64,000 bases of DNA from Buxus sempervirens. Lineage: Eukaryota; Streptophyta; Magnoliopsida; Buxales; Buxaceae. The position numbers and the translations under genes are program-made. Shown here in pieces: positions 6,951 to 60,033 of this stretch. The notes beneath the pieces were generated by a model. It was not told the DNA's origin, made no database searches, and was given only the letters and a program-made list of their open reading frames with translations. Where the stretch lies: contig OX387183.1 of the NCBI GenBank assembly GCA_947561395.2, forward strand, positions 27,454,853 to 27,518,852, given 5' to 3'. How positions within the stretch are numbered: position 1 is the first letter of the stretch; every line of letters begins with the position of its first letter.

Positions 6951-9361
6951 TGTAATGCCCCGGATCCGAGTTACGTAGTGAACCTGTAACTCTTCTCCAA
7001 AGGTTAATTTTTCACACAAGATCGATATATCAGAATGAAGGAAAACATGATTAAAGCAATAACTGCATAATCAGAGTCAACTACAATCCCAAACTGAATA
7101 CAAAAATATAGTGTCACAACTCTCAACTCACATAAACCAAGCATCTACCCACCGGTATCGTCATCGCCAAGATCTGAAAACAAAACGAATGAGATATGAA
7201 TATCTCAGCAAGTAGCACATGCATGCTCAAATACATTTTCCATAGTTATAAAACATGGATCGGATATAAAACATATATCGGTGGCGATAACATGAATAAT
7301 CTGAATAATCTAACAAAATCCAACAATTATAAATCCACACAACAATATCAATTTCAAACAATATATTATGGTGGGACTCGTGAGATTTGACCACTTTGAA
7401 AGTTAAGATCTAGGTCCAAACAATTCAATCAAAGAACATCTGCCAAATTTGTGCCACTGCCATATCTTATTCCAATATCATCACCCTCATGGTAGAATAC
7501 ACAAGACCTCACCATCATGGTGGAAACGGATAAAATCCAGTCTGCGAACCATTACTATATTTGATACCAATGTCATCACCCTCATGGTGGAAATACATAA
7601 GACCTCACCCTCATGGTAGAAATAGAGTTGCTACAGCACTTCCCTCATGGAAGGCCTCTCTATCATGAGAAAACGCATTAAGGAGATTAGACTTAATTCA
7701 ACAAAGTTAGACAGACTTCACTTTCTAGTTAGACTATGAATCCATAACAAGGTAAGCCTAAAATAGCTTAGTACAAAACCGACATGTAAACCAACATATA
7801 CAACATATAATCATAGGTCAATCATGACCAAAACCACTCCATCCTGGATAAACTCACAGTATACAATTTTCAGCCAATCTCCAATAACAGAACAACATTA
7901 AAAACAAATCATTCATGAAATAACCAATTTATTCAACTCTGTCCCAAAACTTTAAGTTAAGCAAAATCTGGCCGAATAAGACAATATCTCAAATTTGCAG
8001 TTTCATATGTTAAACACATTTATACAAAAGCCAAACAGTGTAAGAAATTTCGATTAGTCACAAATCGGAAAAAACCGAGCTCCTAGATTATGAATTTCAT
8101 CAATTGATATCCATCTCATAAACACTTAATTTTCAACAACTATATTTCATATGAAATCTCCTACTAGAGACTCCTGTAAAATAATTTTAACATTTATTTA
8201 ACTCTAATTGAAGGTGATTTGAAGATAAAGTCATGGAAATCTGCTCAAGAAACAACAGCCGCACTACCACTAGAAATGAAGTAGGTCGCCTGAGCAACCT
8301 ACGCTGGTCGCCTGGCCAACCATTCAGATTGTGCTTGGTCACCTGGGCGACCATGAAGTTTTTCTATAGTCGCCTATAGTCACTTAGGCGACTAAATGGG
8401 TGACCACTTCAAATTCAAGTTCTGACAAATTCCCATTCTCTGTAAATCCAAAATCAAACCCTCTGACCAAGAATTTATCACTTACAATACTCAAATCAAC
8501 CATTTTAAGACATGCTCAAACCTATTTGGATTTAATTAAAACGTAATTGCTACAGAAAACACAGAATTCGCAGATATTCATTTGAGCGCTAGATTTTCTA
8601 TTCAAAATAGAATATGCATCTATCAATCCGAAATTTGTTTGCAATCCGATAAATCAAAATGCTACTTACCTGATTAGGATTCAAATTCGAGCTCCTACTT
8701 CAAAAATTCCTCAGATTTGAGCTCATAACGTTCTTCCTCCATTAACGACTGAAAATACAGAATTACTCTTGAGATTAATCAAATCTCTTCAAGTCTAATC
8801 CGAATTCACTATTCTACATCATTATCTGAGTGATTAGAGAATTATAGATCATATTTTACCCGAATTTTAGTTGATTTGGTTGAATCACTCAAGTCCATAC
8901 TTAATCCTCAATTGAAAATGAGCTAAAATCCTCTCTAATTCAATCGGCCAATCCTTATTTGATCGAAACTCATCCAAACCTTCTTCTCTTTTCCAGATTC
9001 TCCCCTCCAGAATTCTAGAGAGACTTCTGGTTCTAATCCAATAAAATTAAATAACAAGGAGCTCCTATTTATACTTCCAATTAACTGCCCATTTCTATCC
9101 CCCTTCATGATCAGCTGGTTGCTCCTCTACAATGTGAATCTACAACCTCATGATCATATAATGTAATGCCACACCACCAACAATATCTACTCCACCAACT
9201 AATTTAATTATTTAAATTACCTTGATTAGCACATCATCATTATTTAATTAAATCAAAGCTTTCAACTTGACTTTTCATTTCTACTTTAATAATAAACCAT
9301 GATTATAAAATTAAATAATAAAATTCAATTTTTAATAAAATTAAAAATTTAGGATTTTACA
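6951..9361 (-). mobile_element. Solo LTR, family 2 (Gypsy-type), copy a
   Basis: The repeat is 2411 bp, TG...CA bounded (TGTAATGCCCCGG on the left, GGATTTTACA on the right), and flanked by the perfect 5-bp target duplication AATTT at 6946-6950 and 9362-9366. A TATAAATA box on the minus strand near 9072 gives the transcription direction. Inside are a donor-like GTAAGTAGCA near 8665, an acceptor-like TTTTCAG near 7173, palindromes at 8281-8394 and a loose tandem array at 7490-7680. No internal region is present, so it is a recombination-derived solo LTR. It is younger than the L1 it sits in. Confidence 0.85.
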
Positions 9362-12051: not shown

Positions 12052-12159
12052 TCGAATATTAATTGTGAAGGTTTGCTACCAAATTACCTACAAAGTTACA
12101 ACAACCCTCTGCAATCCTGATTCCACTTCAGAATAGAGCTTTCTCTTCATTCCTACCCT

Positions 12160-15100
12160 ATGGACCAGATGGCAAAAGAAGCTCTGTGGGCTATCGGAAA
12201 GGGTACGTTGACGACGTTGGGGGGCCTCGCTGCCGGCGGCGCTGCGCAAGAATTCTCGCTGGCGTGGTATGCTGAGAAGGAGTTGAATGAGCTTGAGAAT
12301 TCGTTAACCGCCATCAGAGCTACACTAAGGGGAGCCGAAGAGGGTCAATATGCCATTACAAGTCCTGATAGAGATTGGCTGGAAAAGCTTAAAGACGTGG
12401 CTTATGATGCGGATGACGTGGTGGATGATTATGCTACAGAAGTCTTGCGACGAAGAGTGGAAGGAGATGAGACTGGCTGCTGCAACGCTAAAGAGGTACG
12501 TGGCTTCTTTTCACGTCTCCTTTATAGTTTAACAATTGGCCATCAGATCAAGGAGATTAGGGAGAGATTACAGAACATTACATTAGATAGGAACAATTTC
12601 CATCCCCCAGCACAGCTAAGTTTCCCAAGGCAAATCAGCACCGTCGAACGGGACACCCACTCCTTTCTCTCGAATCCATCTCGTGTCATTGGGCGAGAGG
12701 ATGATAAAGAAGCAATATTGAAATTATTGAAAGACCATGAGAGCGGCATCTCCATCATCCCCATAGTGGGTATGGGGGGACTTGGTAAGACCACGCTCGC
12801 ACGATTCGTCTTCAATGATGACTGGGTAGTAGACCATTTTAAGCAACGAGTGTGGGTGTGTGTCTCTCTAGATACTGATACCAAAACAGTTATCCAAAAA
12901 ATTGTAAAATCAGAGAGTAAGGAACCAACGATGGAAGATCTGATGAATCTCCTCAAGAAAGAAATGGGTGGGAAGCGGTATTTACTTGTCTTGGATGACG
13001 TGTGGGACCTAAATCCTAATGCATGGAGGGAATTAACAGAACTCTTGATGTGTGGGGCTGGTGGAAGCAAGATTCTAGTCACTTCACGTGACAAAGAGGT
13101 TGCATCCGCTGTCCGCACGGTGCCACCATATGAATTGCCATATTTATCATCTGATCATTGCTGGTCTCTCTTCGAGCAATGCGCTTTAAGAGAAGCAGAT
13201 GAGGGACAGAAGAAAAAACTCTCTCCAATTGGAAGAGAAATTGTGATCAAGTGTCGCGGTGTTCCTTTAGCCGTAACCACTCTTGGAAGCCTCTTGTCTT
13301 CTACCACTAACGAGAATGAGTGGAGGTCTGTCCGAGACGATGAAATTTGGAAGTTGACTGAAAAATATGATGAAATCGAGAGGAGGAGAATTGATATTTT
13401 GCCTATATTGCAGTTCAGTTACAATCACTTGTCACTCCACTTGAAAGCTTGTTTTGCTTACTGCTCATTGTTCCCAAAAGATTATAAAATGCAGAGAGAG
13501 GAGTTGATCCTTTCGTGGATGGCAGAGGGCTTAATCAAATCATCCAATCAAGAAATGGAGGATGTTGGCAATCAGTATTTCAATATTCTCTTGTCAAGGT
13601 CGTTCTTTCAAGATGCAGAGAAAGATGAAGATGGGAATATAAGATACTGCAAAATGCATGATTTCATGCATGATCTTGCCCGTTCTGTTGTTGGCAAGGA
13701 ATACTTGATCGTGGGCAGAGACACTGCAACCCCTGAGGTAAGCGTTCGACATATGTCAATGCTTTGGAAACCTGATTTGAGGTTTTTTACGAAACCTAAG
13801 TTAAGGACATTAAGAACAATTCATGGTTCAGTCTCTTTGACACTACTTCGTGATACATATTTAAGTTTTATGCGCCTACGTGTATTAGACTTAAGCTTTT
13901 CAAAACAGCTGCCCGACTCAATAGGCAAACTAAAGCATCTGAGGTATTTGAATTTGTCCGGTTCTCGCATTAAAGAATTTCCGGATTCTTTTAGCAAGTT
14001 ACAGAATTTGCAGACCTTGAAAGTCTCTGGCTGTAGAAATCTTAAGGAACTGCCCAAGGATATAAGGAAGATGGTTAACCTTCGATATATTGATAATTCG
14101 TGGACATGTTTCACTCATATGCCATCTGGGCTAGGGCAGCTAAGCTCTCTCCAGACTCTGCCACTGTTTCGTGTAGGTGACAATATTGGGGGTAGACTAT
14201 CCGAGTTGCGTAATTTAGACGGCCTCAGGGGTACATTGGAGATTACACAGCTTGAAAATGTTACGAGTCACACCGATGCCGAGACAGCAAGGTTAGAGCA
14301 AAAGAAAAATCTTAAAATATTGAAATTAGAGTGGAGCTCAGAAGGTGAACAGCAACTTCATGATAATATACTGAATGGTCTCCACCCTCCTCAGAGTCTG
14401 GAGAAGCTCTATATAAAATTGTTTTCGGGTTTGAGGTTTCCAAGTTGGAGAATGTCGTCGCTTTCGAAACTAGTGAGGATTGAATTGATCAATTGTAACC
14501 GATGCAAACATCTTTCAGCATTTGGCGAACTCCCTGCTCTTCAGATCCTCTTTCTATGTTTCATGGAAAGTCTCGAGCACATTGGCAGTGAGGTCTTCGG
14601 AAAGAATCCAAGGGAAGGATTTCCATCACTACAGGAACTCCACCTGCGTTTTTTACCAAATCTAGTGGATTGGGAATGGTCGATGACAATAGATCATGGT
14701 GATGAGATAACAAAAAACAAAACGGATCAATTGTTATTCTTCCCACATCTTAAGCGTTTGGATGTAATCGGGTGTAAGAAGTTAACTGCAATGCCATTCC
14801 ATCCAACTTTGGAAGAATGGGGGCTATGGGATTGTAGAGGTGAGTTGTTGATACACTCAATGACGCCAAACCCTACCACAGACACTCTTTCTTGTCTTAC
14901 ATCTCTAAAACGTCTAGAAATTGATACTTGTAAGGGCCTGGAATATCTGCCTGCACAGGGATTACAAAAACTAATTTCTATGGAGGAATTAAGAATTCGG
15001 AATTGCCCTGATCTAAGATCTTTGTCTAACCATGTACTGCAGCGCCTCCCTGCCCTTCGATCTTTATTTATTTTTGATTGTCCCGCGCTGAATTCTTTAC

Positions 15101-15696
15101 CAATCTCGCCATACCTCACTAAGCTGGAGATTATACTTTGTCCAAGTGCCACATGGTTGGAAGATGAGAAAGACGAGGCTCAGCAGGGCTTCAAGTCCTT
15201 ACAAAGCTTTAAGATTTGGTCTATGCCAATGGTGATTTCTCTTCCCAAGATGCTGCAATGTGCTGCTTCCCTGCAAAGTTTACAAATAAATGTTTGTAAG
15301 GGGTTGGCAACTTTACCCGAGTGGCTGGCAAACCTGACATCACTTCAAAAACTCCATATAGGTTGTGGTACTTTACCCAAGAGGCTGGCAAACCTGACAT
15401 CACTTCAAGAATTCCATGTACGTTGTTATGGGTTGGCAACTTTACCCGAGGGGCTGGCAAACCTGACATCACTTCAAGAACTCCATATATGTTGTGATGG
15501 GTTGGCAACTTTACCCGAGGGGCTGGCAAACCTGACATCACTTCAAGAGCTTGTTATTCATGATCGCCAACCCCTGCCGTCTCTACCAGAAGGGATGGAA
15601 CGTCTTCCGAGAATCAAGAATATTACAATTTGGAAAAAAAACCCCCCTGATGCTCCTATTGGCTACAGCCCAAAGTACATAAACAATTTGGATTAG
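12160..15696 (+). CDS. CC-NB-ARC-LRR (CNL) disease resistance protein, RGA-like
   Basis: The product is an intracellular immune receptor of 1178 residues in one uninterrupted exon; the family usually runs 900-1300. The Rx-type coiled-coil domain (about 1-150) has an EDVID-like DVAYDADDVVDD at 79-90. The NB-ARC (about 175-510) keeps every key motif: P-loop GMGGLGKTT 204-212, kinase 2 LLVLDDVW 275-282, RNBS-B GSKILVTSRD 302-311, GVPLA 367-371, RNBS-D CFAYCSLFPKDY 431-442 and MHD 499-501. The LRRs run from about 545 to 1155; the last four are near-identical copies. Such proteins switch from an ADP- to an ATP-bound state on effector recognition and trigger hypersensitive defence. The start fits well: TATA box upstream, clean N-terminus. 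The base composition is clearly richer in GC than the flanks. All motifs look competent, so it is probably functional. The recognised pathogen is unknown. Confidence 0.95.
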   Translation: MDQMAKEALWAIGKGTLTTLGGLAAGGAAQEFSLAWYAEKELNELENSLTAIRATLRGAEEGQYAITSPDRDWLEKLKDVAYDADDVVDDYATEVLRRRVEGDETGCCNAKEVRGFFSRLLYSLTIGHQIKEIRERLQNITLDRNNFHPPAQLSFPRQISTVERDTHSFLSNPSRVIGREDDKEAILKLLKDHESGISIIPIVGMGGLGKTTLARFVFNDDWVVDHFKQRVWVCVSLDTDTKTVIQKIVKSESKEPTMEDLMNLLKKEMGGKRYLLVLDDVWDLNPNAWRELTELLMCGAGGSKILVTSRDKEVASAVRTVPPYELPYLSSDHCWSLFEQCALREADEGQKKKLSPIGREIVIKCRGVPLAVTTLGSLLSSTTNENEWRSVRDDEIWKLTEKYDEIERRRIDILPILQFSYNHLSLHLKACFAYCSLFPKDYKMQREELILSWMAEGLIKSSNQEMEDVGNQYFNILLSRSFFQDAEKDEDGNIRYCKMHDFMHDLARSVVGKEYLIVGRDTATPEVSVRHMSMLWKPDLRFFTKPKLRTLRTIHGSVSLTLLRDTYLSFMRLRVLDLSFSKQLPDSIGKLKHLRYLNLSGSRIKEFPDSFSKLQNLQTLKVSGCRNLKELPKDIRKMVNLRYIDNSWTCFTHMPSGLGQLSSLQTLPLFRVGDNIGGRLSELRNLDGLRGTLEITQLENVTSHTDAETARLEQKKNLKILKLEWSSEGEQQLHDNILNGLHPPQSLEKLYIKLFSGLRFPSWRMSSLSKLVRIELINCNRCKHLSAFGELPALQILFLCFMESLEHIGSEVFGKNPREGFPSLQELHLRFLPNLVDWEWSMTIDHGDEITKNKTDQLLFFPHLKRLDVIGCKKLTAMPFHPTLEEWGLWDCRGELLIHSMTPNPTTDTLSCLTSLKRLEIDTCKGLEYLPAQGLQKLISMEELRIRNCPDLRSLSNHVLQRLPALRSLFIFDCPALNSLPISPYLTKLEIILCPSATWLEDEKDEAQQGFKSLQSFKIWSMPMVISLPKMLQCAASLQSLQINVCKGLATLPEWLANLTSLQKLHIGCGTLPKRLANLTSLQEFHVRCYGLATLPEGLANLTSLQELHICCDGLATLPEGLANLTSLQELVIHDRQPLPSLPEGMERLPRIKNITIWKKNPPDAPIGYSPKYINNLD
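15302..15560 (+). repeat. Tandem LRR-coding repeats, periods 60/69/69 bp
   Basis: CTGGCAAACCTGACATCACT starts at 15325, 15385, 15454 and 15523. Three units are 69-bp type (23 residues, LATLPE.LANLTSLQ.LHI.C.G) and one lacks three codons. Identity at DNA level is very high, unlike the diverged LRRs upstream, so these arose by recent in-frame duplication (residues about 1048-1135). The spacing keeps the reading frame. Confidence 0.9.
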
Positions 15697-38876: not shown

Positions 38877-39959
38877 TGTAGCACCCCGAAACCAGGTTCA
38901 CCCGAATAGGGTTCATACTGGCTCCTGAGCGCTATTTTAGGGCCCAAAGTGTGATGAAATACATTAAGAAACTAAACAAGATAATTACAATATACTCCTA
39001 AATTTTAAAAAAAAACTGCTATATAACGTCTATAATTACAAGGTTGGGTGACGCCCCTAATGCCTACTAATCACAGATATGAATATATAGGCATTATACA
39101 TCTATTCAACAGCTAAGCCAACAAAATATACAAATCTACAAATATGGTTTACTAAGTTTTACACACACTCTCTCTCTATTTACAATATCCAAAAATTAAA
39201 TATACAACTATCCAAAATTTGCCTTTTTTAGAACTAGCCGAGGTAGTAGTAATCCTCTGGCCTATATTCTGGATAACCCTCAACTTCTGCCCTGCTACGT
39301 GTCTCACCTGTCGGATCTAAAAACAAAACCGGTAAAAACAAAAAACCACGTGTGAGACTAACGTCCTAGTAAGTAGCACGATGCATAATAAAACAATTTA
39401 TATAGTTTTCAAATAATTAATAACATGCTCAAACACCATACGGTCAAACTCTGTCAAAATAATGATAATAAGGCGATCATCCTTATGTAAATAAAAATTT
39501 AACCATTCCAAAGCCATAAATAAAGAGCCGATAAAATCAGAGTAATCCGAAGCACGATATCAATAAATTCACAACAAATATCAACATTCAAATTCCATCC
39601 AATTATGCTAAGAAACAATCACCTATACGAAATTGTTCAAGTATCATAGTAGGATTTATAACATAAAACAAACCTTGCGCATCGGTTACTCGAACCAATG
39701 CCTCGCGCCACAATTCAAAAGAATACCTTCAATACAAAACTAATTTCATGCAGTTTAAAGAAATACAAATGAGGCAAGAATAGTCTAACATAGCAAGTGG
39801 GACTAATGTCTTTGGCAAGTCTATAAATCGGATTAAGAAATAAATCCAGTTTTTGCCACCTCACGATTTTTGGAGATAGCCTAATAGTCTCCTCACGAAG
39901 TGCCCCCTTCCTGGGGTTGGCAAGTACAACCCAAATACAATACCAATCTCATGTCAAAC

Positions 39960-40325
39960 TTGATGAGGGAACCACACCGGGTCTATGTACATCATCCCAA
40001 TATCATATCCGATGAGGGAGTCACACTAGGCCTATATACCTCATTCCAATACCAATACCATATCCGATGAGGGAGCCACGCTAGGCCTGTGTACCTCATT
40101 CCAATACTAATACCATATCCGATGAGGGAGTCACACTAGGCTTGTATACCTCATTCCAATACCAATACCATATCCGATGAGGGAGTCACACTGGGCCTGT
40201 GTATCTCATTCCAATACCAATACCATATCCAATGAGGGAGCCACACTAGGCCTGTGTACCTTATTCCAATACCAATACCATATTCGATGAGGGAGCCACG
40301 CTGGGCCTGTGTACCTCATCTAAAT
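39960..40325. repeat. 55-bp tandem array inside LTR F2
   Basis: GATGAGGGAG recurs at 40011, 40066, 40121, 40176, 40231 (as AATGAGGGAG) and 40286, exactly 55 bp apart; a diverged earlier unit sits at 39962. Units read CCACACTAGGCCTGTGTACC, then TCATTCCAATACCAATACCA. The copies are well conserved, implying recent expansion or homogenisation. Confidence 0.9.
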
Positions 40326-40460
40326 AAGGTTGTCGCTTATAGCGATTGGACTTAAGTGTTAACCTGACAAGCCAATATCATAACACTTTCTAACTTAGGA
40401 ATGGATCCATACCTGCTTTGGAAGCCAGTTCACTACCTTTACCCCCAGCTAGGGTGAACC

Positions 40461-43400
40461 TGTAAAATCCCTAATTTTCTGGAAAATTTAAAAATTAATT
40501 TTCTAGTGATTAAATTAATGTTAACTAATTTATTTTGCAGAGAAGGGAGGTTAGTGGTTTAAACCGGAAAGTTTGCTTGTGCTGGTCGGGTTATTTAAGT
40601 AAAAAGGTATAAGAGAAATTTCTGAAATTATTCTTAACTAATTGAGTTGATCGGATGTGGTGGCAAATAAGAACTATTAATTAAAGCACCTGCTGATGTA
40701 GGAGACGTGGTAGAGTGGCGGTTCAGCGGATCATGATTTAAGTGATGCTTTGAGCGGCAACTATAAATTGGAGCTAAAGTCAGGCTCGCTGATTTTTTTT
40801 GCTGAGTTTTGATCGAGCAAACTTGGAGATCTCATAGAGAAGGAGATCCAGGAGCTAGGGTTGAGGAGCTGGAAACCGAATTTGCTGAAGTGATCAGAGA
40901 GGAGTGATCTGATCGTGATCCTTTGTTTATCGTTATAGAAGAGAGCTGCTGCAGAACTTCAATTCGTCATGAGCAATTCGAATTCTACAAATTCAGATCA
41001 AGTTGGATGTAAGTTAACATTAAACCTGAGTTTTCGTTCTAGTTTTAGTGAGGATTCAAATCAAGTTCCAGATCTGAAAAGTCTGAACAATTGAGATAAA
41101 TTTCAGAGGAGGAGTGGGCGTTGAATTGGAACTTTTCTGCAGAACTCAAATCTGTAGATTTGAGGTCTTCAACAACTCGAATTTGCATCTGACGGTGAGT
41201 AGCACAAGTTTATTCGGTTTTGAATGATTTGAAATTAGAAGAAATGTGTGTTAGATTGAGAATGCGGCATCTCTGTTTTCTGTTCTTTATGTCCAGATTT
41301 AATCGTATGATAGTATAGCTGAATGTCATAGGGAGAAATTGCATGTGGATCTAATGTAAGTAGCCTTGGTGTTCCATTGTATTGGCAATCGAAAAGCATG
41401 ATTTAAAAGAGTTATCTGCAGTAGTTTAGTAAAAATCGGCTGTTACTGTTTTATGAATAAATCTTTGAATCGAAGCATGAATTTGATGGAATTAAATTCA
41501 AATCAATTGTAGAAGGATGTTAGAAGGATTATGAGCAAGACTTAATAGATGTGGAGCCTTAAATTGGGTTCAGTCCTAGATATAATAGAGCTAGCATTGA
41601 TTAAATCATGATTCAAAAGAAAAAAGGCTTTGGGCGCTAACCATGGCTGACTGACAAGAGGTCAGTGATGGTTAGCACTAGTGCAAAAATTGAGAGGGCT
41701 GAGGGGCGCCTACCATGGCTAACTGACAGGAGGTCAGCGCCCCTTGAAAGATCCATTTAGCCTATGCGGCTAAGTAATACTAAGTTGATTTCTATAGTTA
41801 TTGTTTTTAAAACTTGTCTAAGAGTTTATTAGAATGTTAGCATTGGTTCTAGGGATTACAATACACAGCTTCCACTCCAGTAAATATGGAGAGAAGAAAT
41901 TGATTTAAGGTTCAAAAATCTGCAGAGTGCTCATTGACACCAAGAAGGGCTGATCTAGAAGGAGGTTGGAGCCATCTGTTTTGTTATGGCCAGGTGCGAC
42001 CGAGTTAGGAAGTTTGTAACTCAAGTCTTTAACTTCTAATTGTTATCCTAAAATGTCTAAATAGGATGGGTAAAGTTGCTGAAGTGGTTGTTGATTTCTG
42101 AAGTGAAGAAAATCTGAATGTATGTAAAAATCTAGAGAGCTGGTAGGAAGTTGCTGTTGTTCTCTTAATAATGTAAATTCTGTTTTCCATCATTTAATTA
42201 TTATTCTCATAACTAAATCAAGGTTAGATATGTTCTGAAATAGTTAAAACACAGAACCTTTACAGCAAAATGAAAGTGGGTGAACAAAGGAGCTTAGGCA
42301 ATGAATATTTAGAAAATAAGTGCTAGAGGGAATTGGCAACTAGTAAGTGGTTGTGCTATAATGATTCAATTAAATTCAATTATATGATAGAGGCATGTTT
42401 GGGAAGTTAAAATATTTCTAGAAATAGTTAGAGTACTAAATAATAAATCAATCCTAATCAAATCTCCACAGCTGTACCTAAATGTGAAAATATTGAGAGA
42501 GCGCCTAGGATTGCTGACCATTGCTGACCTGGCGCCCAGCTCAAGCTTAGGGTGATTCAAACCCAAATTCTTAATTCCAGTAAGGGGAAAAACCTTTGGG
42601 AATCTAACCAAGAGTAATTAAAGGATTTCTGGAAAATAAGAGCGGTTGGTCTGAAAAATTCTGCAGGTACTAGTGTAAAAATCAGCAATCTATCTAAGTA
42701 ATTAAGAGTGAGTATTTTAATAAGTTCTGAGACTTTTCCAGCAATTCTAATTTGGGATTTTTCTACACTTATAAGGAGGTATTATCTACGAGATAAATGG
42801 GAGATGAAGAAAGGGAATTGGAGTGAGATATAGGTGCTGAACCTGGGTCTATACTTAATATCAAGTATGGAGTTGAGAATATGAGATTACATAAAATGGA
42901 GTTAGAGTAAACTTTATGGGGGAAAAGCTTTCTGTTTGAGTTCAAAATAAATGTGGCAGGTCTGAATCTAATATTATTACTAAAGTTTGATATCTATAAG
43001 TAGATTTGCCGGTTTAACCGTGTTTGACAATTTTACCAAATTTTGACTATAAAGAGGATTTTAAGCATTATTTCGAAAAGGACTTTCTAAACTAAATTGT
43101 TATGGACAAATCTGAGTTTTGGAACTTTTATACACTGTGAGAATGTTTCTTGTGAACTTGATGGCTGGATGGTTACCTTACCTCCGTGTACTCGGGGATG
43201 CCCACGTACTTGGGGTTGTTTCCTCTGTGTACTCAGAGATGGATGTGTGCTCGAGATAGCATGTTTTGGGTTGGAACCCTTCGATATTGATGAGATTTCT
43301 GTTTTTGGTTTTAGCTCGAATCTAGATGGCATAGCTCGGTGTGGATCCACATTTGTCAAGGTAAGAGCTAGGTAGTGAAATGGATTGTTCTTTGCTAGTG

Positions 43401-44199
43401 GTAATACCTTGTTCGCGCACGCGTTCCATCGTGTAGCTCGATGAGGCCTTCTCTGTATCTGGTTGGCTGCGGCTATGTTAGGATAGTACATGCCAACCCA
43501 TTTCTGTATCTGAATGGGTTCTTCCGCAATAAGTCGATGACCGTGTATCTCGGCTTCACACATAAGCCGGAGGGTGGCATAGTGAGCTTGGTTTTACACT
43601 AGTTAAAGGCGGTTTATTTCATGAGTCCACCGTGGACTTGTTTTTATGATTACACTTATGAATCTCTGTCATGCATTGACTGTGGTTATTGCTCTTTATC
43701 AGTATACATGATGTATTTGGATTACTCGGTTTACTCCTAAATATTGGTTATTATTTCGAATACATGTTTTACTATTGAAGCATGTTTTAGAACTGATACA
43801 AATGCTTTGTGCATGCATGCGCTACTTGCTGGGATATTCGTATCTCATTCCGTTTTGATTTGTTTTGTTTTCAGATCCTGGTGATGACGATATACGCGGG
43901 GTAGAGCTAGACGCGGATTACCCCGAGTATAGGGGAGAGGATTTCTTTGTTGAGTGACTTTTGAGATATATTGTAGTTGCTATTTTCATTTGAGATAGTG
44001 AGTAACTTTGGAAATTTTAATTCTTTTAAATTCATTGTGTTGGTGATTGGGATATTTTAGCGAACTCTGATATTGTGTTTGATGATAATAAATGAAATAT
44101 CATGTTTCTTACACTCTGATATAGATCCTGCGGTTTTGTTATCTAACCCTCAGGTACGAGTTACGGTTCCATTACGTAACCCGGATTCGGGGCGTTACA
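40461..44199 (+). mobile_element. Solo LTR, family 2, copy c
   Basis: 3739 bp, from TGTAAAATCCCTAATTTTC to GGATTCGGGGCGTTACA, with the perfect target duplication GAACC at 40456-40460 and 44200-44204. Read in transcription order: TATAAAT near 40761, donor-like GTGAGTAGCAC near 41193, palindrome 41636-41676, tandem text near 43180-43560, acceptor-like TTTTCAG ending 43874, and a short coding-like tail 43875-43957. No internal region remains. It is the younger insertion within F2. Confidence 0.9.
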
Positions 44200-45908
44200 G
44201 AACCAGTTCACGATCCCCAACCGAGGTGAACTAAAATCCCAGTCCACAGAACATCCAACCATAGGCCCTCGGCCCTTTTCAAACTAACAGGAAACCTCAG
44301 CTTCATAATCCAAATCACAATCAATCAAAACAAATGTTATAGAATCCTCAACACACAATTTCAATATCAATACAAACCCCTTGGCATTCTGCCATCAACA
44401 CAATTCTTTTCAAATAACCAACACTGTTTTCCAAAACAAATATTGAACACAATTTAGGATTAAACTAATTTCATGCTTGGAGAAGACCAACACCAAATAT
44501 CCACAATTGGTTTGCAATTGCTGTTTACTCTGCAGATCTGTTTCTAACTTGTTAATTAAATGCTAAACCTGATCTAATCTATAACTAATGGGTATTCATG
44601 CTATATATTACTGGAGAGATCTATGAGTCTAGTTTCTAATGCAACAAACAGTTCATAATTTGAAGTTTTTTAGAGAAAGTTATAGCCGTTTTACTACAGA
44701 TGGTTACAACTTACCGCGAAACCCAATGAACGGAAACCATCAATTTTTCTTGATTTTTCTTGCAATACCCTGAGTTCCGATTAGTCTTAAACCACTTCCA
44801 TTCAACTACAAACACCCTAAACTAAATTTTAAACTACTAATATAAATTTTAACCCAAAGATTCCAAGCCCTTGCAAGCCACCGAAATCTTACACAAGTTT
44901 AAAACCAGCTAACAAAACGAGTTGCTTTTAAACTTCAAATTGTACCTATGCAATCTGATAATTTCCTAATACATACCTACCTCTTTTCCTACTCCTAATC
45001 CATGCAAATCCCCTTTTCGAATCGCCCCGTCAAATCTTTAGAAGCAAGAAATCCATCGTAAATTTGTTAAACCCCAAAATCTGAACTGTGCTAAGATTAA
45101 AATGCATTATCCACCTTAATTTTTGAAATCCACATTCTCCTAATAAAAATCAGGAAACTAAAACTTTAAACATCCATTAACATCTAACTATCACATGCAA
45201 TCACTGACATTTACCTAACAGCAGCCATTAACAGAAGCCCTCATATTTGATTCCTACGCTAACAGCAACTCCGATTAAACAACTAATAGCTATTCCTACA
45301 CTATCAGTATCTAACAGTTAGGCAGGATTTGGGGAATAAATTCTCACAATAAAACTCCTACACTAACAGTAACTCAATCAGAGTATTTCAAGCAACTCCA
45401 ATCAGAACCCAAGCTTACTTCAATGCCAAAACCAAAATAGCAACTTCAATAACTGTATATGCTTCTCGAAGTTCATAATCTGAAAATACAGCATCAAAAG
45501 TTCTAACCTATACCCCATTTAAATTTGAGAAACCACCATCATCCATTAGCAAATCTAATCTGAAAATACAGCAATAAAAATCTATCCAAATAAATACAAA
45601 ACCTTCAATTTTCATGTGGTTCCAACTCCATTTCAATTTCAATAAACAAAACAAGCAAACTCCGCACAAATCCTTAAGAAACAGTGTCTTCTTATGACCA
45701 GAAATTCCAGATTCAATTCCTACCCAAAGCCATCTAACAGTCAATCTTAACAATTACTTTATCACAGATCAAAGGAAATAAAAAAGAAAAGCAATCCGTC
45801 TACGGCAACTAGATGAGGAATAGCACATGCTGAAATCTGATAAACCAAACAAAAATCAATCGAATAAAGTGCTACTTACCAAAATCGCTAGATCCACATG
45901 CCTAGAAC

Positions 45909-48253
45909 TGTAAAACCCCGAATTTCTGTTCATTTATTTTATGAGAATTAATAAGTTCGTGTGGTGAAATTTCAGAAATTGTGAAGCAAGGATGTATTAG
46001 AGTTCGAAACATTAGGTGGAAGGAAGATAAACAAGGTTAGTAAGGTGCTGTTTTAATTAGAGTTATTATGCTGTTGTGCTCAGTTGTTAAATAAATGTAT
46101 TTATGTGGATGATTATTTAGGGAATAGTTTCATTAAATCAAACGGCTGGGAAGCTGCACATGTAGGGAGAAGCGTGGGCGAGCGTGCACTGAATCATGAG
46201 TTTTAAAATTCGTCGAGCGGCAAAGTGTATATGGTAAGTATAAATACCTAATGTATTTAGATACGTATGTTTCATATACCTTGAGTTGAAGGAGATTGCG
46301 GCTGGTTTTTCTAGGGCTTTGGGGAGAAGGGAAGATGTTCGTGTTCCTGTCGATCAAAGGGTGTTCAGAAAGACCATCGTTACGACCAGAGAAGAGTTTT
46401 GGGCGAAGAGCGATAGTTCTCACTTCTAGTTCTCAGGGTTGCAATGCGAGGACTTAAGCATATAAGAGGTGAGTAGCATTGTTTTTTATCTGTGTTTGCT
46501 TTGATCTCTACGTTTAGTCAAAAAGCATGGTTTCGGGAAACATAGCTTTGCGAACGTGTTTTATTCAATGAGATTCAGGGTCGGTATATGAAGTTGTTTA
46601 GATTAATCTCGAAACCTGTTTAAACGTGTTTTGGGGATGGTAGAAGCCTAGGAAAATTTTTACAGAAGTCTAAAACATGGTCAGTCATGTAGTTCTAGAG
46701 ATAATAGAGAGTCGGAAATTGGGAGTTGGGTTCGCCGAGTTGCCGCCGACCTGTCTACCTCAGCGGTAGCTCAGCACGAGATAGTTTTTGGTTCTGCCGA
46801 GTTGGCGCTAATCTTGCCCCAAGTAATTTTAGTTCGAGCGAGTTGTTTTTGGGTTACCACCGAGTTGGGGCCGACCTCGCGCCAAGCGCCAGAGGTCAGC
46901 GCACCCACCAAAATCTGCCAAAAGTTGGTTATGACCAATCCAAGCCAAGTTTTGATACTTTGAGACTTCAACCTCTTACCCAAAGACTAGATTAGGATAT
47001 TAGAAATATTATATCTGTTCAAAACAATTGGGAGAGCCTTAAATCAAATTCTTGGTATTTCTATAGGCTTCCGAAGTGTGAATTGAAGGAATCTGGGTAG
47101 GTTTACTGTTCATGACACTATAAGCTAATGAGTTAGTCTTCTTTATGTATTATATTTGTTTTCTAATTATGAATCTGTTTAATCTGGATTTGTTTGATAT
47201 CAAAGGGTTGAATAGTATTGTAAATTTTCTTGTGTGAGTAAAAGGATTTTACTGCTCATAAGGGTTGTTGTTTTGGGGTTGGAATACCTATTGAAATTAC
47301 ATGAGTTGCTATTCTGGTTGGAATGACTTGTGATGAGTGTATTGGGATACACATGATGGTAATCAATGTGGGTTTATTGTTTTGCAAATACTGAGTTTTG
47401 TGAACTTGTTAATTTGGTTTTGGTTTTGGTTTTGGTTTATCTTCCCTTGAATCCATGCTTAAGTTTAGTAATGTGATGGTATTGTTGGTTGGTGTAATTG
47501 CATGGCCTTGTGTGTTGCCACGACCGATGTAGAGTAGTCAGAAACCTTGAGTAGACCTGGTTGTCAATGCCAAAACCCAGGGAGTAGGCATTGGATGACG
47601 AAACCCTGAGTAGGCCGTCATTTCAGAGTTCTGAAACCCTAAGTAGGCCGGAACTGTGTACATGGAGGCGTGGATGTCTTCTTGGCATGTTAATTAACCA
47701 ATTTAACAATAGTCATGACATTGACCATTCGATGTGTTGTCGGTATTGTTATTGAAACATGATTGGAAACTAATATTGGTTTTGGATTTTAACTTGGAAA
47801 TTGTCTTGATTGCTTTAATCATACTGGCTATTTATCGGTGCATAATTTAAACTGTTGTTAACTATTTCTGCATGCATATACTACTCGCTGAGATATTCGT
47901 ATCTTATTCTTTTGTTTTTGTTTTCAGATACTTGTGGTGAGGTGACTACTGGGGTAGATCCAACTGAGACATATAGGGAGGAAGATTACTATTATATTCC
48001 ATAGACTTGTAGGTTATTTTGGATTGGACTTTTGATTTATTTAATGTTGAAAGTGTAATAAAGTAGTTCGAGGTTGAACCATTTAATTTTAATAAAGCTG
48101 AATTTTGAATTCTTAGATAATAAATGTTTGTGCACTCTGATATAGTTTAGTTTAGGTGATTATCCAGCAATCACAATTATTTTAGATCCTTACCTAACAC
48201 TTCGTGAGACGTGTTATACCTTTATTAAAACAACACGGATCCGGGGCGTTACA
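45909..48253 (+). mobile_element. LTR, family 2, copy d
   Basis: 2345 bp, from TGTAAAACCCCGAATTTCTG to GGATCCGGGGCGTTACA. Inside are TATAAATA near 46223, donor-like GTGAGTAGCA near 46469, a tandem stretch based on AAACCCTGAGTAGGCC (47520-47660), acceptor-like TTTTCAG ending 47927 and the tail 47928-48004. The five bases on each side (AGAAC, GTGGT) do not match, so it may be the product of recombination between elements or of a deletion at one side. Confidence 0.75.
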
Positions 48254-54400: not shown

Positions 54401-57400
54401 TGTAAAATCCCAAATTTTAATAATAAAATAATAGTGGCAAATAAATAAATTAATCAATGTTGTTACCAATGCAAGGGTTGAGGAATTGGTTCAACCCGGA
54501 GAAGTTCAAGATAACCCGGAGGACTTAGAAAGCTGAATTAAGGTGAGATATAAATTTAGGATTGAGTTATATTTTAATCTAAATATTAAGTTGTCGTTAA
54601 GATGTATCTAAGTAATTATTGATAAATAATAATAATAAGAAGGAAATTCTAAGATGGTCGAACCTCAGAAAAGTGGGGGTTGATCCAAACCATTTAGGGT
54701 TGATGAGTTGGTTGGAAGAGGTTAAGGGTAAGACAGTAATAAGAATTGATAATAGGGTTAAAATACTAGTAGGGGCATTTGAGTAAAACAACAAGAAAAA
54801 TAATAAACTAAACCTAATGAGCATGTGGCTATTCACATAGAGTGAACAGCTGCCAGCCCCTCTATTCTCTTCTTGTTATTCTCCCATACGTGAAGTTCCA
54901 TTGCTGATTTTTGTGCACTTCTAGAGCATATTAGAAGAAGGAGAAGAAGAGAAGATCACGCTTGGATTACGGTAACAAGATAGGTTGGAAATCTCTGTTT
55001 TTGGAGTTTAAACGTGAAGGAGAGTTTTTAAAGGTGTGTTGTTTGATCCAGATAAGATAAAAAAGGATTTGGGTTCGTTTGGATCTTCGTGGGGGTGACT
55101 TAGTGTAACGCCCCAGATCCGAGTTACGTAAAGAAACCGTAACTCATCTCCGGAGGTTAATATATAACACAGGATCGCAATATCAGAGTGAAGGACAAAC
55201 ATGAAATGACAATAACTAGATAATCAAAGTACGCTAAAAATTCCCAAACTGAAATAAACTCACAGGACCGAGCGACTACCCACAGGAATCGTTCTCTCCA
55301 AGATCAGCTGAAAACAAAACAATACGGAATGAGATACGAATATCCCAGTGAGCAGCATATGCATAGACAAAACCATTTTGTTCAGTTCTAAACATGCCAC
55401 GGTACAATCATATACGCTGACGATAACACGTATAATCCGAGTAATCCAACGCAATTCCATCAATCTAGGTGATATAAACGCGTAAATCCATCTTGTAAAC
55501 CCAAGTAATAACATCGGTATCAAATCATGAGTCTAGCCGTAAAATCACATACAACCAAGTAATGCTGGAGTTTTTATCATGGGTCACTCCGGACCAATTT
55601 CTGGCCTACTCATGGTTTTAGAATACTGGAGTGTTTATCATGGGCCACTCTGCACCAATAGAGTATTTTATCATGGGCTACTCTGAACCAAAATTCCAGC
55701 CTACTCAGGGTTTCGGAATACTGGAGTGTTTATCATGGGTCACTTTGGACCAAACTTTCCATCATGGAGTTCTCAAGTTGTATTCTCAATTCAATTCTCA
55801 AAACAGAATGATGGTAATCCCAAAAATCGATTGTCGATATTAAAACAATATGTAAGTAACTCATTCTTGAAATCTACAATAAATTCAATCTGCATCACAA
55901 TAATTTCAATAACTTCCGGTATAATCAAATAATAATTCCAATTTGAAATTCGAGAAGTTAAATACATTGTGCGGAAAACAATTTCAAAGCCAATGTTAAA
56001 AATATTTAATGCAAAAGTCTCAAAATACTAATTTTTAAAATCTGCCCATAATGTAGAATTTGCTTATTACCTTAAGGTTCTAACATAGTGATGTAGAAAA
56101 CACCCAACAATGGAAAACTATTCGATTATTTGCAAACATGAATATGTAGAATTCCACCTCTTGTTTTATTTCCAAATAATTATATTGACCCATCTCTAAC
56201 ATACTAATATAGAAGTTCTAATTCCCCAACTATCTCAGACATGAAGGACACACTCTAGGTGACTAGGAATTTAATATTTAGCATCAACCACAAGATTTGA
56301 GTCTTTACAATTTAGCATCCCAATTTTGTATATGCAGATTTCACAAACAACTCTCTAAATCACCATTTTAACATTTTTTTTCTAGAGCATAATGTTGTAA
56401 TTCTTTTACTATAATCTGAACCAACAATTTTGTAACCACTGATCAAATTCTCAAAAGACTAAAGTTTAGAATTTAAAACCATACAATAAATACTAATTTG
56501 AATTAGCCGCACAAGGTACATTAAAACAATATTGACGCTAACCTCCAGCTACTAGTAATTTCAGAATTTTATTCTTATTTCCATGATTTACTTCTTCTTA
56601 ATTTATTCATATTCATTTCTGATCTTAATGCCACCTCAGTAACATTCCCAGCTTTTCACTATACTCATAAGATAGATTTATTGAGGTTTTAAACAAGTTT
56701 TGATGGTGTGGTCAATTAGCCACACTTGGCTAATGAAAATAGAGTGGGCGCTAACCTCCAACAGCTGCTCATTTCAGAAATAATTTCGCCCATAATTTAA
56801 TTGTGGTAAATTAACTCATAATCACTTCAACCTAATGTTAAGGTCTAATTTAAACTCATGCAACCTAATTTAATCAATTAACTAATAGAAATAATATTCT
56901 AATGAAATAGCCGCACTTAAGGTTGGTGCTAACCTCTTGAGGTTGGCACCAATAAAATTTTAAACTAGCGCTAACCACCGAGAGGTTAGCACCAGATTTG
57001 AAGGGTTATCGCCAGGTTTGCAAGGTTAGCGCTAGGTGCTATTCTCATGTCCGACTTTATGAAATCTCGAGTTTAATACTTCTTAACAGAAATCTTAATA
57101 CCACAATATTTAGATTAGCATCCTTTATCTTCTACAAACTCAACCGAAGGCATTCGAACCTAATTAGATCAAATTCGATATAGAATTTTAGAATTTAGCA
57201 TGCGACATACTCACGTTCGATTACTTCACTTCTAAACAAATGAGCTATGAAAATCCTATCAGGTGCATCGGCAAAACTCGAAATAAATGCTACTCGCCTG
57301 ATTTGAACCTCCTCAAGCTCAGCAACTCCAAGGCTTTGACTGAGCACAAATGGTAGCGATTCTAACTCCAAGTTTTCTACCGCTCACCTCCGATCCCAAT

Positions 57401-60033
57401 TCCTCTACCAAAAGGTCTAGATCTGATTAGATTTGGATGAAATCTAGATTCCTTTAACCATTTGTTCACAATGATCAAGCTAATTTTCTCTTACCGGATC
57501 TCTCCAAACGAATTGACTGAATTTTGCAACCTCCAGCCACTGCAACCTTCGACAGCAGAATTCCATTACTGATTTAACTCCCAACCACCTTAATTTCACA
57601 ATCTCCACTCACCTTCTTCTCTCCTTCTCGATCTGGTTGAATTCCGGTAGAAATTCTCTTCTCCTAGCGAAACCCAAAACTTTACATACAACCTCCACTT
57701 ATAAGTTTCTGTTGGCGCTCAAAAGCCAACCTCAAATCATGATCTGCTGTGCACTCACCCACAGCCTCTTCCTACATAAACAATTCTTTAACACCTGTTT
57801 CAATGATTGCCTCTTCACCTAATCACCTACCTTAGCACCCTATTAAATTAAAAATAATTTTAAACATAATAATGATTCAGATTATTATTTTAACCACATC
57901 TAACTTTAATTTACTTCCTTCCGCACTTAATTTAGTTAAATCCCCAAATTACCCTTTTACAGCTACACCACCAAACCACCAAAACCCAACCCATGAAAAT
58001 CAAATCACCGATCTTTCCTTTTAATAAAAATTCATCTTATCTAAATTTTGAATTTTAACATTAAATAATTTCGTTTCCCCATTTTCTGAAATTTTCCACT
58101 AATTAAATAAATTAACACACAAAAATCTAATTTTTAATGTTATTAAAAATTCAGGATTTTACACTTAGCAGTGCTAGTAGAGGAGAAATTAATCTCAAAC
58201 GAGGTAAGTAGTCCCTTTAAAAATTGCATTAACAGAATTTCGATGTTTATACGATAACCATGATTATTCACATGTTTGTTGATTGGTTTGTGTTTGATAT
58301 TGTGTTTTAATTGTTCAAAATTGTTCTAACATGTTTATGAATCATTCTTGAATCGTTTAGAATGGTTTTGGTATTTTAGATTTGAAGTTTCGTATTTTTA
58401 TTTGATTTACGCAACTTTTCAGAAGTTACAGAAAAGTGGTTTTGCAACAGGCTGCTCGAACCACCGCTCGAGCACCTCTATGGGCATCGAGATGGAGTTT
58501 GTGGGTGCTCCATAGGGCTCAAGCGTGATCAAGGCGCCCCAACTCTGCTTTTTATTTTTCAGAAAACCCGAAAGTGATCAAAAACTTGGAAGGAGAATGC
58601 CCGAAGCGTCGCTCGAGCGACCAACCCTGAACTCACCTAATTTTCTTGTTACCTGTTCGAGTGCCCTTGTTAGAATTTCCAGATTTCTCAAATCAACCTA
58701 GTTTTCCACTACGGAATTGTTTTAATTCAATTTAAACTAGTGTACCATTAAGATTAGAGTATTTAGAGATAGTTTGCACTAGCGGATCATTAAAATATAT
58801 TTTTACAAAGATTTTGGGTACGTTTTGCTAAAGAGACTTTTTAACTTAGTACCATTGTTCCAAACAATTCACTTTTAAACAAAACTTAATTTTAAGAGTT
58901 CCTATACTTGTATTTGAGTTATTTGAACGTATTTTGTGCATCAAAGGATTCGATACACATCTGGGCCCGTTGAAACCTGGAGTTTGGACATATAACTTAG
59001 TTCCACTTGTGTGGGTTTTGGGTCACAGTTGTGACAAGGAAGTTGCCTGGTTTGTTTATTCCGCAGCTGTGGGTTTGTTATTGATACAGTTGTGTCTCCG
59101 CGTATGCAGGTGTTATTGGGAGGTATGTCCATCAACTGGTTTGGTTTTCTACCGTTGAGTAAGCTTAGCAATTGCATGAATCCATAGATTAACTAGTAAG
59201 TGAAATGTCTTCTAGAGGGGTTTGAATTCTGTGTCATAGGCATTTCATCATCTCGAGGATGGTACCGTTCCTGGATAGGTCGGTTGCTACGTTACCCCAC
59301 TCGTGGATAGGTTTGGCCTTACATGCTAAATCATTCCAATTGTCGGTTGGGTTCTTCTGTTGGTGTCGAATAGCTAGTTAGCAGTTACGGCTGGTCCACC
59401 TGTAATTCGGTTAGATAGCATATTAGCATATGTCTACGATTCTTTCTCTGGTTTTATATTTCATGAGTCCCATGAAGTTAAATGGTTTGTGGCTATTTCT
59501 ATCTTTCAATTAATTATTGTTGTTATGTATGATTGAGATTAGTCTGATTTATTGTGCATAATTACTGTTACAAATTATTTGCATGACTGCTTACTGAGAT
59601 GTTGTTTCTCACATATTCGTTTTATCGGTTTTATTTTCAGATATTTATGGTGAGGATGTTGCAGGGGTAGACACTCCGAGGGATTTTGCTGACTACTAGG
59701 AAGACGACTATTTTATTCCTATGTAGGTCTAGGGAGCATACATTGATTGATTTAGTATTTTGAGGGATTATTATTGATTTATTTATTTAGATGACCTTGG
59801 TGGATGTTGATTCATTTCATTTTAGTTGACCCTTTCCAGACTTAGTTTGATGGATTGGATTTGGATGTTTTATTTTTATTCCACGCTTCTTGGAAGAATA
59901 TATCTTTTATTTTCCGCACTCTGATTATATTTATTGAAATTGTTTAAGTCTGAATTAGTTAATTTGGGCCTTCACCCTAACATGCTAGGTTCAGGTTTAT
60001 GTTTTTAAATAAACCTGGATCTGGGGTGTTACA
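54401..60033 (+). mobile_element. LTR, family 2, copy e, interrupted by nested solo LTR b
   Basis: It runs from TGTAAAATCCCAAATTTTAA to GGATCTGGGGTGTTACA. Solo LTR b sits at 55104-58163 within it. After b come donor-like GAG|GTAAGTAG at 58203, palindromic text near 58455-58640, acceptor-like TTTTCAG ending 59640 and the tail 59641-59727. Without b it is about 2.6 kb. No matching target duplication was found. It is older than b. Confidence 0.75.
55104..58163 (-). mobile_element. Solo LTR, family 2, copy b
   Basis: 3060 bp, from TGTAACGCCCCAGATCCG to TCAGGATTTTACA, with the perfect target duplication CTTAG at 55099-55103 and 58164-58168. In the minus direction: donor-like GCGAGTAGCA near 57295 (a GC variant), palindromes near 56923-56990, tandem text near 55565-55760, acceptor-like TTTTCAG near 55310. 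No internal region is present. It is the youngest layer of this nest. Confidence 0.9.

Follow-up and report, generated by a model that had tools for sequence, protein, structure and literature searches.

In this study we analyzed a stretch of 64,000 nucleotides (nt) of the Buxus sempervirens genome (contig OX387183.1, positions 27454853-27518852; hereafter, the window), which carries six related long terminal repeats (LTRs) of retrotransposons, among them a solo LTR at 40461-44199. Our results suggest that these LTRs, and their relatives elsewhere in the genome, probably contain a U2-type spliceosomal intron that is contained entirely within the LTR of Tekay/Del-like chromoviruses, together with a functional RNA helix connecting the two ends of that intron. 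A previous sequence-only reading of the window had proposed that the leader of each of the six LTRs holds an intron with constrained borders, and this proposal is supported here: donor and acceptor blocks could be seen in all six copies, and the borders are more conserved than their flanks, a check that was passed on samples from a single genome rather than on all copies. Beyond that reading, two conserved stretches that exceed what a splice consensus requires, the AGCA after the GTRAGT of the donor and the GATATTCGTATCTC block, supply the strands of a long-range helix (P1), which covaries, and of a hairpin (P2).

Conservation and composition at the putative splice sites

The putative introns begin with GT or GC, end with AG, are preceded by an exonic AG, and have a RAGT-like donor, as U2-type introns do, although L043, L061, and L070 have a base other than G before GT. 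Across 11 LTRs from nine families, information content was 1.56 bits at positions -2 to -1 and 1.61 bits at +1 to +10, compared to 0.32-0.44 bits in the donor-side flanks and 0.32 bits farther upstream; the value at +1 to +10 is inflated where the donor was located by its complementarity to P1, while that at -2 to -1 is not, and the conserved AG before GT in fact lies outside the helix. On the acceptor side, ten of those LTRs yielded 1.40 bits for the helix strand and 1.59 bits for the hairpin, against 0.59 bits at -60 to -21, and CTCAY, a pyrimidine tract, and YAG come in order after the hairpin. When counted with exact patterns that require AG and a perfect start of exon 2, a pyrimidine precedes this AG in 1,725 of 1,729 copies of family D and 1,367 of 1,371 copies of family C (family letters are our own labels), with RAG in the remaining four of each.

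Composition also switches at the donor. In the 11 LTRs, U makes up 25.5% of the final 170 nt of exon 1 and 34.5% of the intron (p=0.001), and ATGs number 1.45 and 4.12 per 170 nt, respectively (p=0.002). Intron length in these LTRs ranges between 778 and 2,680 nt; exon 1, GA-rich and AUG-poor, would measure approximately 170-250 nt, as estimated in three elements from where the TATA box lies, and exon 2 extends to the end of the LTR and the primer-binding site. A splice-site matrix used alone ranked the helix donor as the strongest 5' splice site in 14 of 27 LTR pieces, and as the second strongest in three more.

As for the individual sites, the sequence-only reading had found the right donors but placed them up to 4 nt off; in the 40461 LTR its acceptor junction (43874/43875) is correct, while its donor junction (41192/41193) falls 2 nt too early. 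That only one donor, in the 55104 copy, is of the GC variant was borne out. The acceptor block that it quoted for all copies is exact in 40461 and 55104, one letter off in 6951 and 45909, and different in 38877 (TAGGAC-GTTA-GTCTCA) and 54401 (TGAGA-TGTTGTT-TCTCA), whose acceptors still form a hairpin in spite of the different wording.

Long-range helix and acceptor hairpin

The first ten bases of the intron (GTRAGTAGCA) are complementary to the ten bases located directly 5' of the hairpin, with the AGCA after the donor core complementary to letters of the TGCTACT before the hairpin. Between families, the two strands change together (GTGAGTAGCA/TGCTACTCGC, GTGAGTGGCA/TGTCACTCGC, GTAGGTGACA/TGTTACCTAC, GTAGGTAGCA/TGTTACCTGC, and GTAAGTAGTC/GACTGCTTAC) and, judging from such pairs, the helix is maintained by compensatory changes. 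Our statistics are based on 28 copies with both strands located, corresponding to 19 distinct pairs and 190 cells, where 159 cells are Watson-Crick, 24 G·U, five A·C, and two of other type. The distinct pairs reached a mean score of 9.0 of 10, above every one of 20,000 re-pairings, and when a single row per family was used (n=11) the value was reached by six of 50,000 permutations; more than one type of Watson-Crick pair occurs at +3, +4, +7, +8, +9, and +10. G·U cells outnumber A·C cells (24:5, p=0.0005; 16:4, p=0.012 without position +2), an excess that favors pairing at the RNA level. Inverted repeats with a palindrome nearby would also be expected of protein-bound sites in the DNA, but this explanation is very improbable given that excess, and given that the spacing of the two strands is unconstrained, yet the 3' strand keeps a fixed place beside the hairpin.

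The typical hairpin, TGAGATA-TTCG-TATCTCA, ends in a branch-site-like CTCAY, after which come a T-rich tract and CAG. A census anchored on the 3' splice site, the exon 2 motif, and CTYAY with a T-rich tract returned 41 blocks, of which 31 have a stem (22 distinct contexts) and ten do not; seven of these ten are off-target anchors and three are real. In all 22 contexts a 10-mer resembling the helix strand adjoins the stem with no spacer. Because the stem occurs as TGAGATA/TATCTCA, TGGGACT/AGTCTCA, TAGGAC/GTCTCA, and TGAGA/TCTCA, its inner pairs covary as well. CTCAY or CTTAY closes the 3' arm, 21-36 nt upstream of the true AG (16 nt in the 6951 copy); the presence of CTYAY and a T-rich tract is partly due to the construction of the anchor, which is not true of their fixed position at the hairpin end, and in family D the anchor lands on a later AG within exon 2. 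Based on agreement with the consensus (YUNAY, 20-40 nt before AG), CTCAY or CTTAY at the end of the hairpin is a fair candidate for the branch site.

Other observations made around the helix concern a CATGCATG (RY-like) box directly 5' of its 3' strand, for example at 43811-43819, with 1.22 bits at -20 to -11 from the hairpin compared to 0.59 bits farther upstream, and two similar sites in the L045 intron, lying 1330 and 1401 nt upstream of the end of the LTR, where a donor-like GTGAGCGGCA reaches 8.0 of 10 when scored against the helix strand and might act as a decoy. A search of Rfam with the 38800-60000 portion of the window returned no match at the gathering score.

In families C and D and in two window copies, exon 2 opens with an acidic frame in phase 1 that has an EDYYY-like end and a stop codon (for example DTRGEAITGVDPAEAYREEDYYYLP), with variants in family F. 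In the window this frame is found at 43875-43957, from 39316 downward on the minus strand, from 47928 on, and from 59641 on, and it is also seen in L046, L045, and other loci of families C and D. Among 11 family D copies, the proportions of synonymous and nonsynonymous differences are 0.275 and 0.120 in frame, and 0.178/0.141 and 0.105/0.136 in the shifted frames, a pattern that looks purifying-like. No ATG or open exon 1 frame leads into it, and the ways of reaching it that we considered were all rejected. A small protein encoded by exon 1 and exon 2 is not supported by exon 1, which has neither a conserved ATG nor an open phase-1 frame. Joining a donor at the end of pol (CAAG/GTAAAT) to exon 2 would fit the phase in family D, but family C has a stop before the site, as do many of 100 places examined among 452, and donors internal to gag-pol in L046 and L045 provided no common phase-1 candidate beyond ordinary protein motifs. 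An acidic frame in the unique 3' region of family D is not maintained as a frame among L080-L089, and the antisense reading of exon 2 is closed by stops, as judged by hand only. Near the polypurine tract at the pol ends, RGGTAARTTTCGAGGACGAAAT is conserved (for example in L079, L080, L090, and L091; 452 genome matches) both within the pol frame and when past its stop.

Distribution among LTR families and lineage of the carriers

Exact matches to an 18-mer from the acceptor block number 2,503 in the 677-megabase genome, compared to none for the reversed control, and the block is thus not there by chance; the intron layout is shared by about 11 LTR families according to our own labels. A pattern for the junction between LTR end and primer site matched 528 places genome-wide, some belonging to other elements. 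Thirty loci were fetched at such junctions, and the acceptor block was found in 24, spread over several LTR families, while our finder did not detect it in L010, L019, L021, L027, L029, and L030.

Family D (L046), the only one shown in full, encodes gag, protease, reverse transcriptase (RT), RNase H, and integrase (INT) in a single frame; in family C (L045) these domains are likewise present, but the frame is disrupted. A Tf2-1-like SH3 domain was identified by Pfam at the end of the family D protein (L079), where no Pfam match to a Chromo domain was obtained, although the tail of this protein (WELES..YPNLF) presumably resembles the end of a chromodomain. After the LTR is the primer site TGGTATCAGAGC, which we take to be that for the initiator-Met tRNA. 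Domain order, SH3 domain, primer site, and LTR form point to Tekay/Del-like chromoviruses (Ty3/gypsy) as the carriers. The families of L039, L041, and L042 look non-autonomous, as a sequence resembling the start of a 3' LTR is found approximately 2.0, 3.3, and 3.4 kilobases (kb) past the 5' LTR, respectively, and no Pfam match was obtained for the frames tested in L041 and L042. Acceptor block and hairpin are retained in all three, but the long frame of exon 2 is not; a paired donor is also present in L042, while none could be placed in L039 and L041, whose LTRs measure 827 and 946 nt. A wider reading, in which the helix acts as a lock (see below) and covariation has conserved the whole device in about 11 families, at least one of them without recognizable gag-pol, has slightly less than an even chance.

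Among 3,100 exact-pattern copies of families D and C, none lacking the intron was found, with patterns that miss older copies. Eight matches with RAG before exon 2 (four in family D and four in family C) were considered as exon-exon junctions, but all eight were read and none is intron-less: six have AAG and one GAG instead of CAG at the normal acceptor, and one has a deletion that removes hairpin and tract. A search for exon-exon junctions with the family C exon 1 tail ending in CAG gave no match.

The features of the window copies are listed in Table 1. The 54401 LTR is split upstream of its intron by the 55104 copy. The flanks of the LTR at 45909-48253 (AGAAC and GTGGT) differ and it has no clear primer site, and therefore it does not qualify as a clean solo LTR. 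A resistance-type gene of the CC-NB-ARC-LRR class lies among the repeats, as an open frame of 1,191 residues at 12121-15696 (plus strand).

Table 1. Positions in the window of the LTR features discussed in the text.
Feature	Position	Strand	Details
Solo LTR	40461-44199	+	Ends TGTAAAATCCC...CGGGGCGTTACA, i.e. TGTAAAATCCC / GGGGCGTTACA
Target duplication, both sides of 40461 solo LTR	40456-40460 and 44200-44204		5 base pairs, GAACC
TATAAA box, 40461 LTR	40762-40767	+	Upstream of exon 1
Putative intron, 40461 LTR	41195-43874	+	2,680 nt, GTGAGT...TTTTCAG
P1 5' strand, 40461 LTR	41195-41204	+	Intron bases 1-10, GTGAGTAGCA
P1 3' strand, 40461 LTR	43820-43829	+	CGCTACTTGC
Hairpin P2, 40461 LTR	43830-43847	+	TGGGATA-TTCG-TATCTCA; final A likely branch point (CTCAT), by consensus only
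Exon 2 start, 40461 LTR	43875-43957	+	Phase-1 acidic frame DPGDDDIRGVELDADYPEYRGEDFFVE, then stop
Putative intron, 45909 LTR	46469-47927	+	1,459 nt; P1 46469-46478 with 47879-47888; hairpin 47889-47906
Putative intron, 54401 LTR	58204-59640	+	P1 GTAAGTAGTC (58204-58213) with GACTGCTTAC (59585-59594), covarying
Hairpin, 54401 LTR	59595-59611	+	TGAGA-TGTTGTT-TCTCA
Putative intron, 6951 LTR	7174-8669	-	1,496 nt; P1 8669-8660 with 7217-7208; hairpin 7207-7190
Putative intron, 38877 LTR	39317-45879	-	P1 45879-45870 with 39378-39369; contains inserted 40461-44199 solo LTR
Hairpin, 38877 LTR	39368-39353	-	TAGGAC-GTTA-GTCTCA
Putative intron, 55104 LTR	55308-57297	-	1,990 nt, GC donor (GCGAGTAGCA); P1 57297-57288 with 55357-55348; hairpin 55347-55330

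Splicing, the possible roles of the helix, and known systems

We acknowledge that several points weigh against an intron in these LTRs, beginning with the fact that splicing itself is deduced from sequence. Donors outside the window were mostly located by complementarity, which inflates the helix scores, and for this reason two controls matter: the six window donors, which were named without the helix in mind and have a per-site pairing chance of 2e-5 to 6e-4, and the donors chosen by matrix only, where +7 to +10 were fully paired in 12 of 27, compared to 21 of 245 other GT sites (p=7e-6), these 21 including helix donors ranked second. Several fetched copies have no convincing donor (L003, L004, L009/L039, L011/L040, L015/L041, L033, L034, and L037) and are not among the 28 copies analyzed, as is the case for L018 and L020, with the acceptor located by eye only, loci L071-L078, and additional LTRs within L033, L034, L040, L043, L044, and L061. 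Among real acceptors, our finder saw no stem in L018 and L020, due to a mismatch, and in L061, where CTCAY is altered. By matrix, another site is the strongest in 13 of 27 pieces, and some of these 13 may have no donor at all. From exon 2 to the LTR end, U content is 36.3%, like the intron and unlike an ordinary plant exon. The absence of intron-less copies fits a selective copying of unspliced RNA, and also fits no splicing at all. Lastly, splicing could remove 37, 39, and 38 leader ATGs in L046, L045, and L044, respectively, but 14, 14, and 9 are left between exon 2 and the gag start, so that splicing alone gives no clean leader, and we favor instead a splicing of part of the transcripts, which would keep genomic and messenger RNA apart.

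That there is no intron, and that helix and hairpin are the base of a giant leader structure involved in ribosome shunting, packaging, or dimerization, with incidental splice-like letters, is an explanation that we consider distinctly improbable. It would agree with covariation, which by itself shows structure only, with the failure to find intron-less copies with the family D and C patterns, and with upstream AUGs that persist after splicing. It does not, however, account for the conserved AG before GT, the pyrimidine tract, and the YAG, all outside both helices, nor for the change in composition at the donor and for +1 to +6, kept as GYRRGT across the 28 copies although the partner strand varies.

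If the intron is real, the LTR leader would consist of exon 1, a complete U2-type intron, and exon 2. As P1 and the hairpin abut, the 5' splice site, the branch site, and the 3' splice site would be brought together, with the variable core of the intron looped out. The helix could work as lock and zipper at once, as it would rival the U1 small nuclear RNA for the 5' splice site and leave only a fraction of the transcripts spliced. Energies computed at 37 C for 11 examples range from -9.0 to -14.9 kcal/mol for the helix and from -7.5 to -13.8 kcal/mol for U1, with the helix being the stronger in nine of 11 by 0.3 to 3.1 kcal/mol, and it is on this similar computed stability that we propose partial splicing. 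The acceptor-side strand would be transcribed 0.8-2.7 kb after the donor, which might give U1 a head start and have the helix act later. The unspliced RNA retains the whole LTR and would serve as genome, while the spliced RNA, with 37-39 fewer upstream AUGs, would serve expression. We infer the competition with U1, the branch point, and this division of roles, and the lock taken alone is a tentative proposal, to which we would give almost, but not quite, an even chance.

A helix that is a zipper only, joining the 5' splice site and the branch site of a long intron as happens in long introns of yeast, and thereby aiding splicing and intron-mediated expression rather than restraining them, is also a real possibility, even if one that falls somewhat below an even chance. 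The helix position is indeed constant although intron length varies between 778 and 2,680 nt, and in the yeast RPS17B (RP51B) gene splicing is promoted by stems that join the 5' splice site side to a sequence upstream of the branch site (PMC2536676). A plain zipper could lie deeper in the intron, however, whereas this helix begins at +1, covers the U1 site, and has a stability near that of U1. Such coverage is not decisive, since in RPS17B the first two intron bases are predicted to pair with the branch sequence, and such pairs are reversible (PMC2536676). RPS17B differs from our LTRs in being a host gene with a far shorter intron, and the passages of that paper describe no hairpin adjoining the branch site (PMC2536676).

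The helix may additionally influence the choice of polyadenylation (poly(A)) site, as in foamy viruses. That the donor mainly acts on this choice, or on read-through of the 5' LTR, with splicing being secondary, would be compatible with the intron but is unlikely. Several LTRs have poly(A)-like words downstream of the acceptor, including AATAAA at 44087 in the 40461 LTR, and in foamy viruses a donor in the LTR lies upstream of the poly(A) signal, with U1 access governed by an RNA structure, although that structure is local, within ~200 nt (PMC3694450), while our helix spans 0.8-2.7 kb. None of the words sought was present, however, in five of 15 LTR ends (L009, L013, L016, L020, and L023), poly(A) sites being predicted here from words, and a conserved branch site and acceptor would be left unexplained.

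The sequence-only reading knew of no Gypsy lineage with an intron inside the LTR, and our search of the literature (titles, abstracts, and passages, with few subscription papers) found no LTR-internal intron described. The intron of foamy viruses extends beyond the LTR, and that of EVADE is said to be at the same kind of place as those of BARE1 and copia. According to a 2025 review, plant LTR elements are generally intron-free, with Ogre and EVADE as exceptions (PMC12786077). Ogre (Ty3/gypsy, Tat) also is a plant LTR retrotransposon with an intron spliced from part of its transcripts (PMC6317226), but that intron separates the protease and RT frames, while in L046 the frame from gag to INT is unbroken, the intron lies wholly within the LTR, the elements are chromovirus-like, and the helix covaries. 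BARE1, copia, and EVADE likewise obtain separate RNA pools or subgenomic RNAs by splicing (PMC3735527, PMC12786077); the BARE1 intron is in gag and copia splicing removes pol, with no LTR-internal site described in the passages of that source (PMC3735527). Human T-cell leukemia virus type 1 has splice donors in its 3' LTR for HBZ, yet these are antisense and the acceptor is in the HBZ frame, outside the LTR (PMC1459196). What is new here is the covarying complementarity between the donor start and the sequence before the hairpin, within a putative LTR-internal intron.

How retroelement transcripts are balanced between translation and reverse transcription is regarded as a major question (PMC3735527). 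If our interpretation is correct, a conserved LTR intron whose 5' splice site is paired would act in cis as a switch, testable by simple reporters, by which the element may choose between RNA for translation and RNA for copying. Helix and hairpin provide a structural signature to annotate the LTRs of these families, and solo LTRs such as that at 40461-44199 would represent ready promoter-exon-intron-exon units beside host genes.

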